Origin: Trichuris trichiura
Taxonomy: Eukaryota > Nematoda > Enoplea > Trichinellida > Trichuridae
Assembly: GCA_037903355.1 (NCBI GenBank)
Contig: JBAJFE010000005.1
Span: forward strand, 3,286,001 to 3,350,000
Length of the DNA stretch: 64,000 nucleotides
Direction: 5' to 3'
Position 1 is the stretch's first letter. The number at the start of each line of letters is the position of its first letter. The translations under genes were made by a program, and so were the position numbers. The notes under the pieces are model-generated. The model was not told the origin of the DNA. It made no database searches and worked only from the letters and a program-made list of their open reading frames with translations. This document shows positions 22,040 through 49,608 of this stretch, one piece after another.

Positions 22040-23560
22040 CGTCAACATGCGTGAAACCATGGTGACATATAACCGCCGCTTGGCAAAAACATCTTGACGC
22101 AGCGTCAAGACGTTCCTTCGCGCCTGATCGTAGCAAACATCTGACTGCCAGGTGCAAATCCATCTTCATGCAGCTTCAAGACGTTCCTTCGCGTCTAATC
22201 GTGACAACGTCAAACCGGCAGTTCCAAATCTATTTGGACGATGTGTCAAAACGTTCTTACCGCCAAATCATAGCAGCATTCAATGTCACGCGACGAACTA
22301 TCTTAACGCGGCGTCAAAAAGTTCTAAGCTGAAGCCGACAAGAGTCGAACCATCTTAACGCAGCGTCAAAATGTCACTTCAAAATGGCAGACGTCGATCC
22401 GTCTCGACGCGGCGTCGAAACGTTGCAAAGTCAAAACGTGCGTAAAGTCAAAACGGCAGACATCGATCCATCCATCTTGGCGCAGCGTCGAAACGTTACA
22501 ACGTGAAAACGTCAGACAGCAGTTCATCTTGGACCAGCGTCAAAACACTGCAACGCCAAAACGTTATAACGTCAAGTCAGCAAGCGTCGAACCACTTCGC
22601 CGCGGCGCCAAAACAATGCAACGTCAAACCGTTGTTACGTCAAGTCAGCAAGCGTCGAACCACTTCGCCGCGGCGCCAAAACAATGCAACGTCAAACCGT
22701 TGTTACGTCAAACCAGCAGGCGTCGAACCACTTCGCCGCGGCGCCAAAACATTGAAACGTCAAACCGTTGTTACGTCAAACCAGCAGGCGTTGAACCACT
22801 TCGCCGCGGCGCCAAAACATTGAAACGTCAAACCGTTGTTACGTCAAACCAGCAGGCGTCGAACCACTTCGCCGCGGCGCCAAAACATTGAAACGTCAAA
22901 CCGTTGTTACGTCAAACCAGCAGGCGTCGAACCACTTCGCCGCGGCGCCAAAACATTGAAACGTCAAACCGTTGTTACGTCAAACCAGCAGGCGTCGAAC
23001 CACTTCGCCGCGGCGCCAAAACAATGAAACGTCAAACCGTTAATACGTCAAACCAGCAGGCGTCGAACCACTTCGCCGCGGCGCCAAAACAATGAAACGT
23101 CAAACCGTTGTTACGTCAAACCAGCAGGCGTCGAACCACTTCGCCGCGGCGCCAAAACATTGAAACGTCAAACCGTTGTTACGTCAAACCAGCAGGCGCC
23201 GAACCACTTCGCCGCGGCGCCAAAACATTGAAACGTCAAACCGTTGTTACGTCAAACCAGCAGGCGTCGAACCACTTCGCCGCGGCGCCAAAACAATGCA
23301 ACGTCAAACCGCTGTAACGTCAAGCCAGCAAGCGGCAAACCATCTCGACACGGCGTCAGAACGTGCGTAACTTCAAAATGCCAGATGTCGTAACATCTTG
23401 ACGTGACGTCGAACGGGGGATCGTCAAAACGGAAGCAGTCGATCCATCTTTAATCGGCTTTAAAACGTAACTTTGAGTCTAACATTTGTATAGCGAAACT
23501 GGCGGGCAGCGATCGATCTTAACGCAACGAGAAAACGTTCCTGCGCATCAAACCGTTAGA
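22040..23560. repeat. Degenerate GTCAAAACG-rich repeat field around a 68-bp satellite
   Basis: The whole stretch is built from variants of a short word like GTCAAAACG spaced with GC-rich patches. At its centre, about 22561-23330, it becomes a homogeneous tandem array with a 68-bp period (unit starts near 22621, 22689, 22757, 22825, 22893, 22961, 23029, 23097, 23165, 23233). Roughly 11-12 units are present, differing by a few bases each. The edges decay into diverged units. Because 68 is not a multiple of three, the open frames across it repeat with frame changes and are not genes. Confidence 0.93.
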
Positions 23561-44745: not shown

Positions 44746-45780
44746 CTGCAACGGCGATTGACCAAAATAAGACAATCGACTACCGCCGAGGGCAACTTAT
44801 CAAAAAAAAAGCATCAGACGGCTGCTTAGGTAAGGTCGCTCCAAAATGCCTTGTCACTTTCGCCGGCAGGAGGCAATCAATATATAAAGCGCTCTTCGTC
44901 ACTACGGCAAAGAGAGGAGGAAAAATTAACCACATTTGCAAGTCGATGCAGCAAAGTCAACTTGTCCGTCCAATCTCCACAAGTGGGTTCAAAGTACAAG
45001 CGGAATTGGGACTTCGCGTCGGCTATCGATACGCCCAGACGTTGCGCCGCGACAAAACCGTTGGACAACCTATTGGCTACGTTAACGCTTCGAAAGTAGG
45101 CTCGGGCGCAAAGTGCCGACTTTGGGTCGGCTTTTGCACTTTAATCGCCACCTAAGCTGCGAGGATTTTCAACGCCAAAAAGATCAATGCAACTTTTCGT
45201 GTTCAATTGGAGACGAAGACAACGGCCATTCCAACCAGCCCAAATGCCGGCGCACAGGGTGCCATCGGGTTTAGATATATTATAAAGCTGTGATCGGCAA
45301 AAAGGTTAGTAAGTCGGCTATTCGGGAGCATTAATTTCGCATGGCGCAACCGTATACATAATATTAGTATTATTAGTGCGATTCTACTTCTTCTTCTTCT
45401 TCTTGAGTTGGATGAGAGGACTGAATCAGTTGAGACTAAAGCCTTTCAACTGGCAGCTAACGCAGTGTATAATGCCCGGATGGCTATTTAGCCGTCGGCA
45501 TACGCGTTGCCAAGCATTCAGCTGCTATCTTTTGCCCAGCAATTTACCGGAACGAAAGAGGTTTCGTAAGTTGTAGCATTGAGCGCCTTGTCAACGTCTC
45601 CTGACGTCAACAAGGAGAAAGAAAGGCGAACGTAAGGAAACCGCCATTGGACGAGCCAAAAAGTCCAATGATGAAAGTAAAAATTGCAAAAATTTTTTCA
45701 GGATTGCCGCAAAGGGCTCGCGCCAAAACCCAGGCGACAACCAACCGGCTGGCGTTTGGATAGGTACAGCCACAAGCTCT
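44746..45780. other. Upstream exons of the minus-strand gene and channel promoter
   Basis: Contains a probable minus-strand coding stretch (about 45140-44880) belonging to the gene ending at 44211. A 151-codon plus-strand frame at 44700-45155 overlaps it and looks like its shadow. A TTC microsatellite lies at about 45389-45403. GGTACAG at 45762-45768 may be the 5' acceptor for the channel gene. Confidence 0.35.
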
Positions 45781-48700
45781 ATGCGTCCGGTATTGGTCAC
45801 CCTCTTGTGCCATTTGATCTGGAAACTATGCCAGGCGCGATGGGACGCCGAAAGTCGCAACTGTGCCAACGATTCGTCAATAATAGACATCATCATCAAT
45901 TCGGATACAAACAACAAACATCGAGTGCCGGATTCAGCCGGCGTAACGGTTTTTGTTGAATTTTGGGTCCAGGAGATTAGTTCGGTTTCCGAGCTGACGT
46001 CCGACTTCGAAATGGACATGTACATCAACGAGATGTGGCTCGATCCGACGCTACGGTTCGACTCGCTCAATCCGTGCAAGCACAACATCACTTTGACGCG
46101 GGAAATTTTCGACAAACTTTGGACGCCAAATTCTTGCTTCATGAACAGCAAGATGGCGTCGATACACGATTCGCCTTTTCGCAACATTTTTCTGATGGTT
46201 TACTCCAATGGCACCGTATGGACCAACTACAGGTAAGCATAGACTTCAACTATGACGTCAGTGTGACGAGTGGGTGATTTAGGGTGAAGGTGAAAGGTCC
46301 ATGCAATATGGACTTATCTTCTTTCCCGTTGGACGCTCAAAATTGCTCGCTAATATACCAAAGTTTTAACTACAACAGGGACGAGGTGAAAATGCGTTGG
46401 GGCAAATCGAAAGTGCTACAATCGAAGCAATTTAGCCTGCCGGATTTCGACTTGGTCGGCGTAACAACCGCCCAAGAAACGCACGTGAGTACTAGTCAAC
46501 AATGCGCGCGTACGTCCGCACGTTTTTAGCATGCTTTCAATCAGCAGTAGCAGCATGTTGAAAATGCGCTTGCACGATGTTCCCTCCCACTGGTTGGAGG
46601 GCACAAAGTTCAATTAGCATTTTGCCCGCGTTGAAAGTTCAATTGTCACCTCGCGCCCTAAGCGTAATGGCTTCATGCATTATTCAACATCAACTTGTGG
46701 GTGTAACCAGAGGTAATCATTGACGCGCGCCTACTGAAAGGACATATGTTAAGCGTAAAAGTGACCATGCAAAAGTAGCTTCCGGCTTTCGCGTCTCGGT
46801 TGAAAGGAGACTAATTTAAAATTACGCGCAAAGAGCCCACTTCCAATGGCAAGTACGAAATTGTCAACTTTTACTATACCGCTTCGTCGAACGTTTCAAG
46901 ATTTTATGTTCGCCTACCCCCTCAGGCATAAGTGGAGTTACATTTTGCCTTAGCTAGGAAAAAGCAGCATAAACTCTTGAAAATAGCTGGTTTCGTTTTC
47001 CGGATGGCATTTTCAAAAGTAAACAACTCTGGTCACAACATTTAAGATCCTAAAAAAAACCCAGTGGACTATTAGTCCCTTCCATTTACAATCACCAATC
47101 GATAATGGTACGTGAAGAAGGTGCAACAACTCGAAAGTACATTTAAGCTTACCGTAATGCACCCTATCCATCATCTACGAAAAGAAGTGCCAATCATTTT
47201 TTAAAAACGCTGAACTAGTTTCATTTTGGCTTCTTTTGTACGGATTTTCTGTGTCCCGTTGAATAAACTTTTATTAATAAACTTTTCTTAATAATATATT
47301 ATACGTCAATCCTTAGACCGCTGATGACGGGTCAAGTTCGGACCCGAAAGCTACGGACATTTTATTAAGAAAAGTTTATTAATAAAAGTTTATTCAACGG
47401 GACAGAAAATCCGTACAAAAGAAGCCAAAATGAAATTATTTGGTCCCGTACGAAGACATTATATCTTCAAAACGCTGAACTAGCTATTTATTCGCTAATT
47501 TTTAAATTGATGCATGTCTTCAGCTTAGCTTTCTTAAAAGGAACTAAGGAATAGGTAACGTGCAGAGAGTTGGTGTGACAAGCGCACACATCGGCATATG
47601 ATACAATACTTCCATAAGGATTAGACGGGAAAAAAAGAAAGAACGTAAGCATATATTTTGCCAGCTAGGCAAAGGGTGAGAAAAAAAATTAGTAAAGTGA
47701 GGGCAGCCCTTCGTTGGCTAAGGGAATAGCATATTTTTGTCTCTTGGAGGTGTATGCACCCAACTTAGGCTTTAAGACTTAGCCGGTCCCTATTCGACTG
47801 CAGCTCCAGCCGTTATATCATACTGAGATGATTAGCATACCTTTAAATCGATTGCTTCGTAAAGGTGGAGTAAAGAAGGAAAAAATATTGGACCAATTAG
47901 CGGTCGGTGACGAATTTTCGGGACAGGTTGCCGCAAGGAGGCAAGGAAAAAAGAAAGTACTTAACTTGTCGAAAAGTTAACCGATATATCGACTTTTTAA
48001 AAAGTCACTTAAATGAGATTGATGTCTGTTGATTTAATTGAATTTTGAAACGGTCAAATTGTGTTGCGGCGCAGTCCCAAAGCGGAAGTTAAACAATCAA
48101 TAAACAGCGGCTGGGCGAAACGTTTTCCAACGGCGGAAAAACATCGGAGCAAATTTTGCAACTGCAGCGCCGGTCCATCGTTACCAACTAGCCGCGGGTC
48201 GCCTTACCCTCATTTCCATTAGTTAAGTTCACTTTTTTCAACCGAAAGTGCTTAGTCGAGCTGAGACGGAGCAAAACGGTCCCACATAACTCGTAGGGCA
48301 ACAAAAATGAAGTAATACTACTTTTGAGCTTGCAGGTATGAAACGTATGCAGTCACTTCAAATATCCCAACTTCGTATTTTCAAAGGGAACATTCATTGG
48401 GAAGTTGCAACGTCACTGCCAACGTATAACTGCCCGGTTATCTTTTTAGAATATAAAGTAACGATTTTCATTTAACCAATGCACCATGATTGACCACTGA
48501 GATTAATGATACATCGCAGAATGACATGCTACCTCGATGAAAAAGTCATTTGTAGACGAAGGACAATGACGTTGGAAAAGGGCTATTCACAAAGATAATT
48601 TGTCTTCAATGGTTGTTCCTCTTAGCAATGATTGAAGATCGCTGGTGTCCCAAAGCAAGTGGGACATAATACGCCAACTTAAAATAGCAAAGAATTTAAA

Positions 48701-49608
48701 ACTTGTGCTACAGAGTAAGCTGTCTTCATCAAAAGACTATTCCCTATGTCACACTTGTCGCCCGGGATTGAACTCAGAACATTCATCTTTCAAAATAATT
48801 CCTGTCCGCGTTTTTGAGTAAACAAGCTGGAATATCTGGGCGTACAACCACTGGAAGCTTAGATGTTTGAATAATTAAGCTGCTACGGATAAATATCCTT
48901 GACGAATGAAGTACATTGAGCCTAAGTATATTGTTCTTTTAGATATCACCAGCGGGCGTTTGGGACGAACTCTACGTGACATTCACTTTTCAACGACGCT
49001 ACATATGGTACATTTTACAAGCATATATACCGACTTATCTAACAATATTCATCAGCTGGGTGAGCTTCACACTTGGTCCGTACGCCATACCTGCAAGGAC
49101 AATGCTAGGCGTCAACTCACTCCTAGCGATGATTATGATGTTCGGTAATATTATGCGAAATTTGCCCCGCGTCAGTTACGTCAAAGCAATTGGTAAGGTA
49201 ACGAATGGAAGGAAATGTACCAACACGACCAACGCTGTGCGCTTTTAAGATGTCTGGATGTTGGCCTGTATGACTTTCAATTTTTGCTCACTGCTTGAAC
49301 TGGCGATCATAGGTTACCTGACAAAGAATACGTCGCCTAATGAGCAACCGAAAAGGCAACGAACGGGAGCTCAGTCGCCTCAAATTCCTTTGGTACGTCA
49401 TGCGCTGCGGTTCACAGCTGCCGACGGTCAACGACAGTCGTCGACAAGGTTGCCAACGTTTGGACGTAAAACCTGCCTCCACAATTGCTGGTCAATGCTC
49501 AGTCCGGTCTACATGGCCGAGCGGATTGATGCCGCTTCGTGTTTTGCCTTTCCTGTCCTATTTTCTTTGTTCAACATCGCCTATTGGAGTTACTACATGA
49601 AAGCGTAG
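45781..49608 (+). CDS. Cys-loop ligand-gated chloride channel, acetylcholine/amine-gated (ACC/LGC-46/MOD-1-like) subunit
   Basis: Four exons (45781-46232, 46283-46484, 48943-49192, 49250-49608) with consistent phases give 420 aa. A signal peptide ([13 protein letters not shown]) precedes the ligand-binding domain, which has the family's [19 protein letters not shown] block and the 13-residue Cys loop [15 protein letters not shown] (about residues 158-172). Helix M1 starts at [12 protein letters not shown]2 begins [15 protein letters not shown]; the PAR at its inner end marks anion selectivity. M3 follows VSYVKAIDVWM. A ~70-residue basic loop leads to M4 ([16 protein letters not shown]). The [17 protein letters not shown] stretch fits the nematode ACh/serotonin-gated chloride group better than GABA or GluCl types; the ligand cannot be told from sequence. 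Intron 2 is 2.46 kb and holds a hammerhead element. Confidence 0.9.
47204..47483 (+). mobile_element. Hammerhead element with ~75-bp inverted arms and 15-bp target-site duplication
   Basis: The 250-bp element at 47219-47468 is bounded by the direct repeat AAAACGCTGAACTAG (47204-47218 and 47469-47483), an apparent target-site duplication. Inside, 47219-47293 is the reverse complement of 47363-47437 apart from a 2-nt indel, and the hammerhead motif sits between the arms. The right end carries ATTTGGTCCCGTAC and TTATATCTTCAA, shared with the Penelope-like copy at 26.7 kb and the element at 62.7 kb. The near-identity of the arms and the intact repeat suggest recent insertion. There is no coding capacity. 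Confidence 0.8.
47316..47356 (+). ncRNA. Hammerhead ribozyme motif, canonical core
   Basis: GACCG, CTGATGA core (47321-47327), CGGGTC/GACCCG stem II with a 7-nt loop (47328-47346), GAAA, AGCT, A as the base before the predicted cut (47353/47354), then CGGAC. Stem I pairs CCG/CGG plus an outer G-C. All core bases of the CUGAUGA...GAAA hammerhead are present. Stem III consists of the self-complementary AGCU, as in hammerheads that work as dimers. This is the best copy in the window. Confidence 0.82.

Follow-up and report, generated by a model that had tools for sequence, protein, structure and literature searches.

A young Penelope-like insertion with head-to-head arms in a channel gene intron of Trichuris trichiura, and relatives that suggest the use of two RNA template stretches

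The insert at positions 47219-47468 of the window (the whole stretch of 64,000 nucleotides of Trichuris trichiura DNA analysed here) belongs to a Penelope-like element (PLE) of the GIY-YIG type that is resident in the genome, of which it is a dead, young copy truncated on its 5' side. The copy itself is ordinary, while the family to which it belongs gives a partly new argument on PLE insertion and on the purpose of the hammerhead: the related inserts suggest that one insertion can be assembled from two stretches of RNA template, placed head to head. The reading favoured here, with a probability of roughly three in four, is that the two 3' ends at a staggered cut each served as a primer for reverse transcription, on template stretches of their own, and left a dead, truncated PLE insertion.

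The insert consists of two inverted arms, assigned by BLAST and by junction and allele readings, which meet head to head around a junction filler, att (47298..47300, junction reading). The left arm (47219..47297, minus strand) is an antisense piece of the pLTR with allele CGGGACACAG and without a tail, and covers about +6 to +84 of the reference copy relative to the hammerhead cut, its exact match stopping about 8 nt short of the cut. The right arm (47301..47468, plus strand) is a sense piece of the pLTR with allele CGGGACAG, which begins about 52 nt upstream of the cut, carries the hammerhead and ends at the end of a tail, a ~40-nt extension after CCAAAATG (47432..47468, plus strand) whose first bases, AAA, are common to the left arm. 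An inverted-repeat search recovered the arms (51 nt at 94% and 40 nt at 95%) that had been noticed in the sequence-only reading, but not the equal architecture implied there, since only the right arm has hammerhead and tail. The RNA of 280 nt from 47204 to 47483 is predicted to fold into one long hairpin at -129.7 kcal/mol, as compared with a shuffle mean of -48.4 (z -16.9).

On both sides the arms are flanked by a copy of AAAACGCTGAACTAG (47204..47218 and 47469..47483; sequence and flank comparison). The 15-bp direct repeat described earlier is therefore present, but only the 11 bp of CGCTGAACTAG are certain target sequence, and the target-site duplication (TSD) is given as 11-15 bp because AAAA, which at the start of the left copy may equally be element, also ends the tail in many other copies. 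Apart from these ambiguous bases, the repeat does not behave as a part of the element, in that other inserts carry different direct repeats at the same position. The right arm differs from the nearly full-length reference copy by a single 2-nt indel (98.85% identity by BLAST) which recurs elsewhere, and the two arms of the insert differ by this indel as well, with no private differences between them; since the right arm is near-identical to the reference and no private arm difference is seen, the insertion can be taken as recent, as previously supposed.

The minimal hammerhead (47318..47356, plus strand), delimited from the sequence, the core search and the structure scans, has a core reading CTGATGA...GAAAGCTA/CGG, in agreement with the core first recognised within 47204..47483. 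It is composed of stem I, CCG/CGG (47318-47320 with 47354-47356), the CTGATGA box (47321-47327), an unpaired extra C between A9 and stem II (47328), a stem II of 5 bp, GGGTC/GACCC (47329-47333 with 47341-47345), GAAA (47346-47349), the palindrome AGCT (47349-47352) and H17, here an A (47353), with the predicted cut at 47353/47354; the position names (A9, H17, 15.2/16.2, the catalytic G of GAAA) follow the standard hammerhead numbering. The whole corresponds to the type I hammerhead set, namely CUGANGA, stem II, GAAA, an NUH triplet and stem I. The sixth base pair formerly attributed to stem II would take the G of GAAA, which is needed by the catalytic core. The AGCU has no loop, so that stem III is lacking in cis and is possible only in trans, and its absence is a plausible reason why the proposed covariance check returned no Rfam hammerhead, neither at the gathering threshold over the whole window nor at E<=10 on stretches of 401 and 69 bases, in a search confined to the window and this copy. 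Taken literally, and for the Rfam models and this copy, that is the outcome which the sequence-only reading had named first as refuting. An additional nucleotide at the place of the unpaired C, between A9 and stem II, occurs in a viroid hammerhead, and minimal type I variants associated with PLEs were reportedly described by Cervera and de la Pena in 2014.

The core is found in the genome beyond chance, as the 39-base sequence has 194 matches with at most 3 mismatches (reversed control 0) and a looser motif with GAAAGCTACGG has 375 (control 0). A structure scan of the collected loci, in which the letters of stem III, H17 and any nucleotide added before stem II were left free, gave 124 matches in 38 entries, corresponding to 36 distinct sequences, and 0 in three shuffles; a single C stands between A9 and stem II in 35 of the 36 (the remaining one has T and a damaged stem), and G at H17 occurs in 0 of the 38 entries. 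A scan with the boxes only yielded 68 distinct sequences, some of which are chance, five shuffles giving 39 matches. A few of the 68 have G at H17 (e.g. two GCTG) and these are without full stems, and double changes are seen in stem I (CCG/CGG, TCG/CGA, CCA/TGG, TCA/TGA) as well as in stem II (GGGTC/GACCC, GGAAC/GTTCC, GGGAC/GTCCC, GGGCA/TGCCC). When 15.2 and 16.2 were left free, and only the C that follows CTGANGA and the GG next to the cut site were kept fixed besides the boxes, the 72.7 Mb of the genome were found to contain 2,800 motifs (control 2), sharing the build CTGANGAC...GAAANNTNNGG and spread over several PLE subfamilies; together with the 194 core matches, this shows that the unit at 47219-47468 is no special element of its own.

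The palindrome in these 2,800 motifs is AGCU in 2,197 and ACGU in 399 (control 1), together 2,596, with 38 for the two other G/C combinations together and 166 for the rest, counts which are not independent events, as the ACGU family may represent one ancient swap. Since adjacent bases cannot pair with each other, the exchange of AGCU for ACGU would fit a pairing between two RNA molecules. PLE hammerheads are said to "cleave RNA as dimers" in the title of a 2017 article by Lunse. In fold predictions, the monomer favours by 3.6 kcal/mol a 6-bp stem II that consumes the catalytic G (-14.0 vs -10.4 with the core free), a dimer joined by AGCU in trans gains little (-23.3 vs -20.8 for two core-free monomers), an unrestrained hammerhead dimer prefers another duplex (-31.8), and the stem I pair probabilities in the whole unit are 0.16-0.26. 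The predicted folding does not favour the active form. Activity of this ribozyme in cells is doubtful.

The genome-wide copy count suggested at the outset gave at least 112 matches to the 47219-47468 unit (40 of 466 candidates scored; 72.7 Mb, 62 contigs), in addition to the core matches given above. The retroelement origin was borne out and can be specified as PLE, since RVT_1 is present in five of the ten ORFs tested near other copies (L032, L034, L038, L044, L050) and a weak GIY-YIG match lies downstream of the reverse transcriptase (RT), as expected for an EN+ PLE, with 22.9 bits against a cut-off of 22.6 in the L038 ORF and 19.8 bits, below the cut-off, in that of L032. These frames lie outside 47219-47468 itself, which is a 250-bp truncation. 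With the protein encoded by L038:7299-8981 as query, 719 of the 7,988 candidates scored are relatives at E<=1e-3. Those that score best are proteins of Trichuris suis and T. muris, identical at up to 79% of positions over 52% of the query length, which makes the nematode host suspected from the sequence alone plausible. The SL1 leader was looked for and not found; Dorylaimia are not known to have a canonical SL1, and its absence is compatible with a Trichuris-like nematode. A nearly full-length copy, L050:1420-4326, which has a piece of pLTR at one end, broken ORFs in the middle and a hammerhead-bearing 3' pLTR at the other end, was taken as the reference copy and compared by BLAST with 54 locus records. 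Read in the RNA sense, its 3' part shows the end of the ORF followed by the hammerhead, pLTR sequence of about 80 nt, ATG and the ~40-nt tail, which doubles as the start of the next ORF.

Some of the loci have features of their own. In C9:6405001-6455000 (L031-L034), repeated units made of PLE and BEL/Pao pieces (Peptidase_A17, integrase zinc domain, DUF1759) are arrayed with a spacing of about 13.7 kb among the first three, and hammerheads are located at 6409089, 6422816, 6436545, 6444056 and 6451580. In C2:1-20000 (L035, L036), at the beginning of its contig, one head-to-head insert occurs twice in opposite orientation, at a distance of about 14.4 kb, a layout that resembles a large inverted duplication or a fold-back of the assembly. 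At L039:6578-7487, each of the six frames has long open stretches that overlap those of the others, as in a stop-free repeat, and a 187-aa open frame of the window with a repeated motif (RRGAKT, HFAAAPK; 22328-22891) looks like a degenerate tandem repeat.

Paired head-to-head arms were found in 30 of the 54 locus records; the other 24 are single-armed, diverged or mutual copies, or have their partner outside or cut by the stretch, and they include L067 and L070, which look head to head, the L031-L034 array, and L036, which mirrors L035. Exactly one arm is tailed in 27 of the 30 inserts (both in 2, none in 1), the tail lying on the left in 12 and on the right in 15. The flanks match over at least 9 bp in 26 of the 30, vs 10 of 870 mismatched flanks of different inserts; these matches are about 9-18 bp long, ambiguous end bases included, and 23 are clean once the microsatellite cases L030 and L046, and L049 (match away from the ends), are set aside. 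It should be kept in mind that 23 of the 30 inserts stem, directly or via the neighbourhood, from the search with 47219-47468, so that the sample leans to its shape; the remaining seven come from a core-pattern list (some taken wide because the partner was already listed), and six of these have exactly one tail. The copy at 47219-47468 combines all three features: an inverted pLTR partner, a tail on one arm and a short TSD.

The same orientation prevails among neighbouring hammerheads. Among the first 100 matches listed in each of three genome-wide searches, those at most 200-300 bp apart are head to head in 36 of 38 cases (GAAAGCTACGG 10/11, GAAAGCTCCGG 16/16, GAAACGT 10/11), the other 2 being on the same strand and none tail to tail. 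Up to 1 kb, again among the matches listed, the head-to-head fractions are 15/16, 18/23 and 11/14, respectively, with 2 tail-to-tail and 3 same-strand cases for GAAAGCTCCGG and 1 and 2 for GAAACGT. The architecture, previously regarded as unusual, is therefore the dominant one among the close neighbours listed for this genome, and it is also described in rotifer PLEs (PMC3846280). Single-armed copies exist as well (L009 and L031, repeats read by eye).

The outer ends of the head-to-head inserts are two reverse-transcription starts, one with and one without the tail. At the inner side, 25 of the 60 arms of the 30 inserts have their end between -58 and -44, counted from the cut, in a 15-nt zone, AGTCATACGTC, upstream of the hammerhead, which is possibly the transcript start or the pLTR end. 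The idea that arms end as a rule at the ribozyme cut was considered and rejected: only 5 of the 60 end at +6 to +8 (47219-47468, L002, L003, L006 and L038), all of them retrieved with 47219-47468, a search that favours this arm-end shape for at least the first four. Exact junction patterns searched genome-wide returned three short inserts with an arm ended at the cut (47219-47468, L006 and L003), with three different junctions, none with both arms so ended, and one ended at about +22; L002 is a further insert with an arm ending just inside the cut, with one mismatch to the exact pattern. The majority of arms extend across the hammerhead, so that reverse transcription does not usually start from RNA that has been cut.

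A further source of evidence is the comparison of alleles between the two arms of one insert. Among the 22 A1 inserts given (the A2 subfamily being left out), 17 were readable on both arms; six of these disagree at known variants (47219-47468, L003, L038, L039, L043, L045) and 11 show no disagreement. At two polymorphic sites (an AC indel, and G/A at +54) the arms of one insert are discordant in 6 of 34 cases (17.6%), vs a permuted mean of 22.0% for re-paired arms, 22% of the permutations lying at or below the observed value, with the qualification that informative sites are few, that AC/ACAC could be slippage, and that the sample was partly chosen by likeness to 47219-47468. This discordance is near the re-paired rate, and the within-insert pairs may be said to look like independent draws. 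An automatic count gave a recurrent arm difference in 11 of 29 inserts (L054 left out), five of which are doubtful owing to arm ends or ambiguous alignment (L012, L027, L051, L056, L069). The arms of L039 differ at five sites, four of them recurrent, and no difference over 20-142 compared columns is seen in L004, L005, L006, L035, L040, L041, L046 and L049. A single cDNA that snapped back would leave the same alleles on both arms; some inserts differ, which argues that two stretches of template were used in at least a part of the insertions.

The insertion most likely proceeded as follows. The element protein would cut the two target strands at staggered positions and leave 3' overhangs of some 9-18 nt, from each of which reverse transcription would be primed on a separate stretch of the element's RNA. 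One of the strands would start at the tail site, the other about 40 nt closer to the ribozyme. Running towards each other, these first strands would then have their ends joined, with a small filler or overlap, so that inverted arms come to lie between TSDs; at 47219-47468, one strand would have stopped just short of the hammerhead cut, while the other would have crossed the hammerhead and ended about 52 nt upstream of the cut. This picture is directly supported by family membership, the TSD, the head-to-head arms, the single tail per insert and some discordant arm alleles. We infer the order of the steps, the priming by 3' overhangs, the joining, and the use of two RNAs; the two stretches could instead be two pLTRs of one tandem RNA. 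Counted against two-sided priming are the single-armed inserts (L009, L031), the lack of arm disagreement in most readable inserts and the three tail-to-tail neighbours within 1 kb among the matches listed. In a study on Anolis, the PLE protein cleaves and extends both strands, and two adjacent internal start sites bound the tail (PMC11167929). The same study reports no start-site difference between strands for the enzyme in vitro, so that, as far as it goes, it leaves the one-tail rule unexplained (PMC11167929). Searches of the literature on twin priming, both-strand priming and head-to-head PLEs brought up no paper with the two-template reading, the subscription literature being mostly outside reach.

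Among the alternatives, the one with the greatest weight, and still an improbable one, is a self-primed hairpin, in which a single cDNA would fold back, either onto itself or onto an antisense template, before being copied, so that the inverted arms derive from the same template. Self-priming has been proposed for the inverted repeats of rotifer Penelope elements, whose junctions hold palindromes (PMC3846280); some junctions are near-palindromic here too (GACGTC in L004), and the eight inserts named above as free of arm differences are as this model expects. The discordant A1 inserts, which disagree at about the rate of unrelated arms, and the five differing sites of L039 speak against it, as does the restriction of the tail to one arm in 27 of 30 inserts, which is not expected from simple copying back. 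An origin as a DNA transposon or MITE with terminal inverted repeats would account for inverted arms and a TSD, and has a nearly negligible probability, given that the arms are 5'-truncated copies of the PLE pLTR, with variable inner ends and, in most inserts, one tail.

A small retrozyme, a kind named in the sequence-only reading, i.e., a non-autonomous hammerhead retroelement with circular RNA amplified on its own, would agree with the size of 250 bp, the hammerhead, the A+T-rich sequence and the TSD, and is nonetheless very improbable: one minimal hammerhead with inverted arms is found where metazoan retrozymes have direct tandem repeats around canonical hammerheads (PMC7229834), close neighbours are head to head in 36 cases and on the same strand in 2 among the matches listed, and similar short copies each have their own junction, looking like independent truncations and not like a replicating family. 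Equally hard to sustain is the idea that the ribozyme hairpin has been domesticated, or has taken on a regulatory role, and acts on the pre-mRNA of the host gene by cutting or regulating it. The insert lies in an intron of 2.46 kb (46485..48942, plus strand, its gt...ag limits deduced from the reading frames) in the gene of a Cys-loop ligand-gated channel, whose exons around 45583-46484 and 48943-49608 encode Neur_chan_LBD and Neur_chan_memb, one of them with GABA-rho and GluCl structures as best matches; insert and hammerhead are on the same strand as the gene, the core is intact and the hairpin is long. On the other side, the insertion is young and bounded by a TSD, stem III is missing in cis, and the folding predictions for stem II and stem I disfavour an active form. 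The Anolis PLE hammerhead, moreover, cleaved only when protein was added (PMC11167929). Regulation of the host channel by the insert is thus unsupported, and the predicted ribozyme is probably of no consequence to the gene. A microRNA-like hairpin was rejected, as Rfam miRNA models match far below their gathering scores and long hairpins score on such models.

A further and rather speculative proposal, to which we give a low probability, is that PLEs conserve the hammerhead chiefly for linking RNAs into dimers, the loop-less stem III palindrome (AGCU or ACGU) pairing two element RNAs and feeding a two-template insertion, with cleavage secondary. If true, this would explain the uncut hammerhead in most of the inserts examined and the separate-template arms in some, the conservation of the palindrome and not of its parts, and the insertion by Anolis hammerhead mutants, which still insert in vitro (PMC11167929). 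The role of the minimal PLE hammerheads is called a mystery in PMC7761336.

With the EN+ PLEs known from the Penelope families of Adineta vaga and from Anolis PAc (Penelope/Poseidon clade), the present family shares RT and GIY-YIG domains, a pLTR and a short TSD, as well as an inverted pLTR at the 5' side and a tail of ~31-40 nt on one inverted pLTR, as described in PMC3846280 and PMC11167929. It differs in its host lineage and in its very short inserts, and the evidence from arm alleles for two template stretches and the count of tail asymmetry are from this genome; the TSDs of rotifer PLEs are 8-10 bp (PMC3846280), as against flank matches of about 9-18 bp here. Like the minimal type I hammerheads of PLEs (PMC6155905, PMC7761336), those described here lack helix III in cis and are located in the pLTR, and they may be set apart by the extra C in 35 of 36 sequences and by the ACGU family. 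Metazoan retrozymes are likewise small, non-coding retroelements with hammerheads, but they are direct tandem repeats with mostly canonical hammerheads and circular RNAs (PMC7229834), whereas head-to-head arms with a minimal hammerhead are found here. The family thereby bears on both the origin of the inverted repeats of PLEs and the purpose of their minimal hammerheads.
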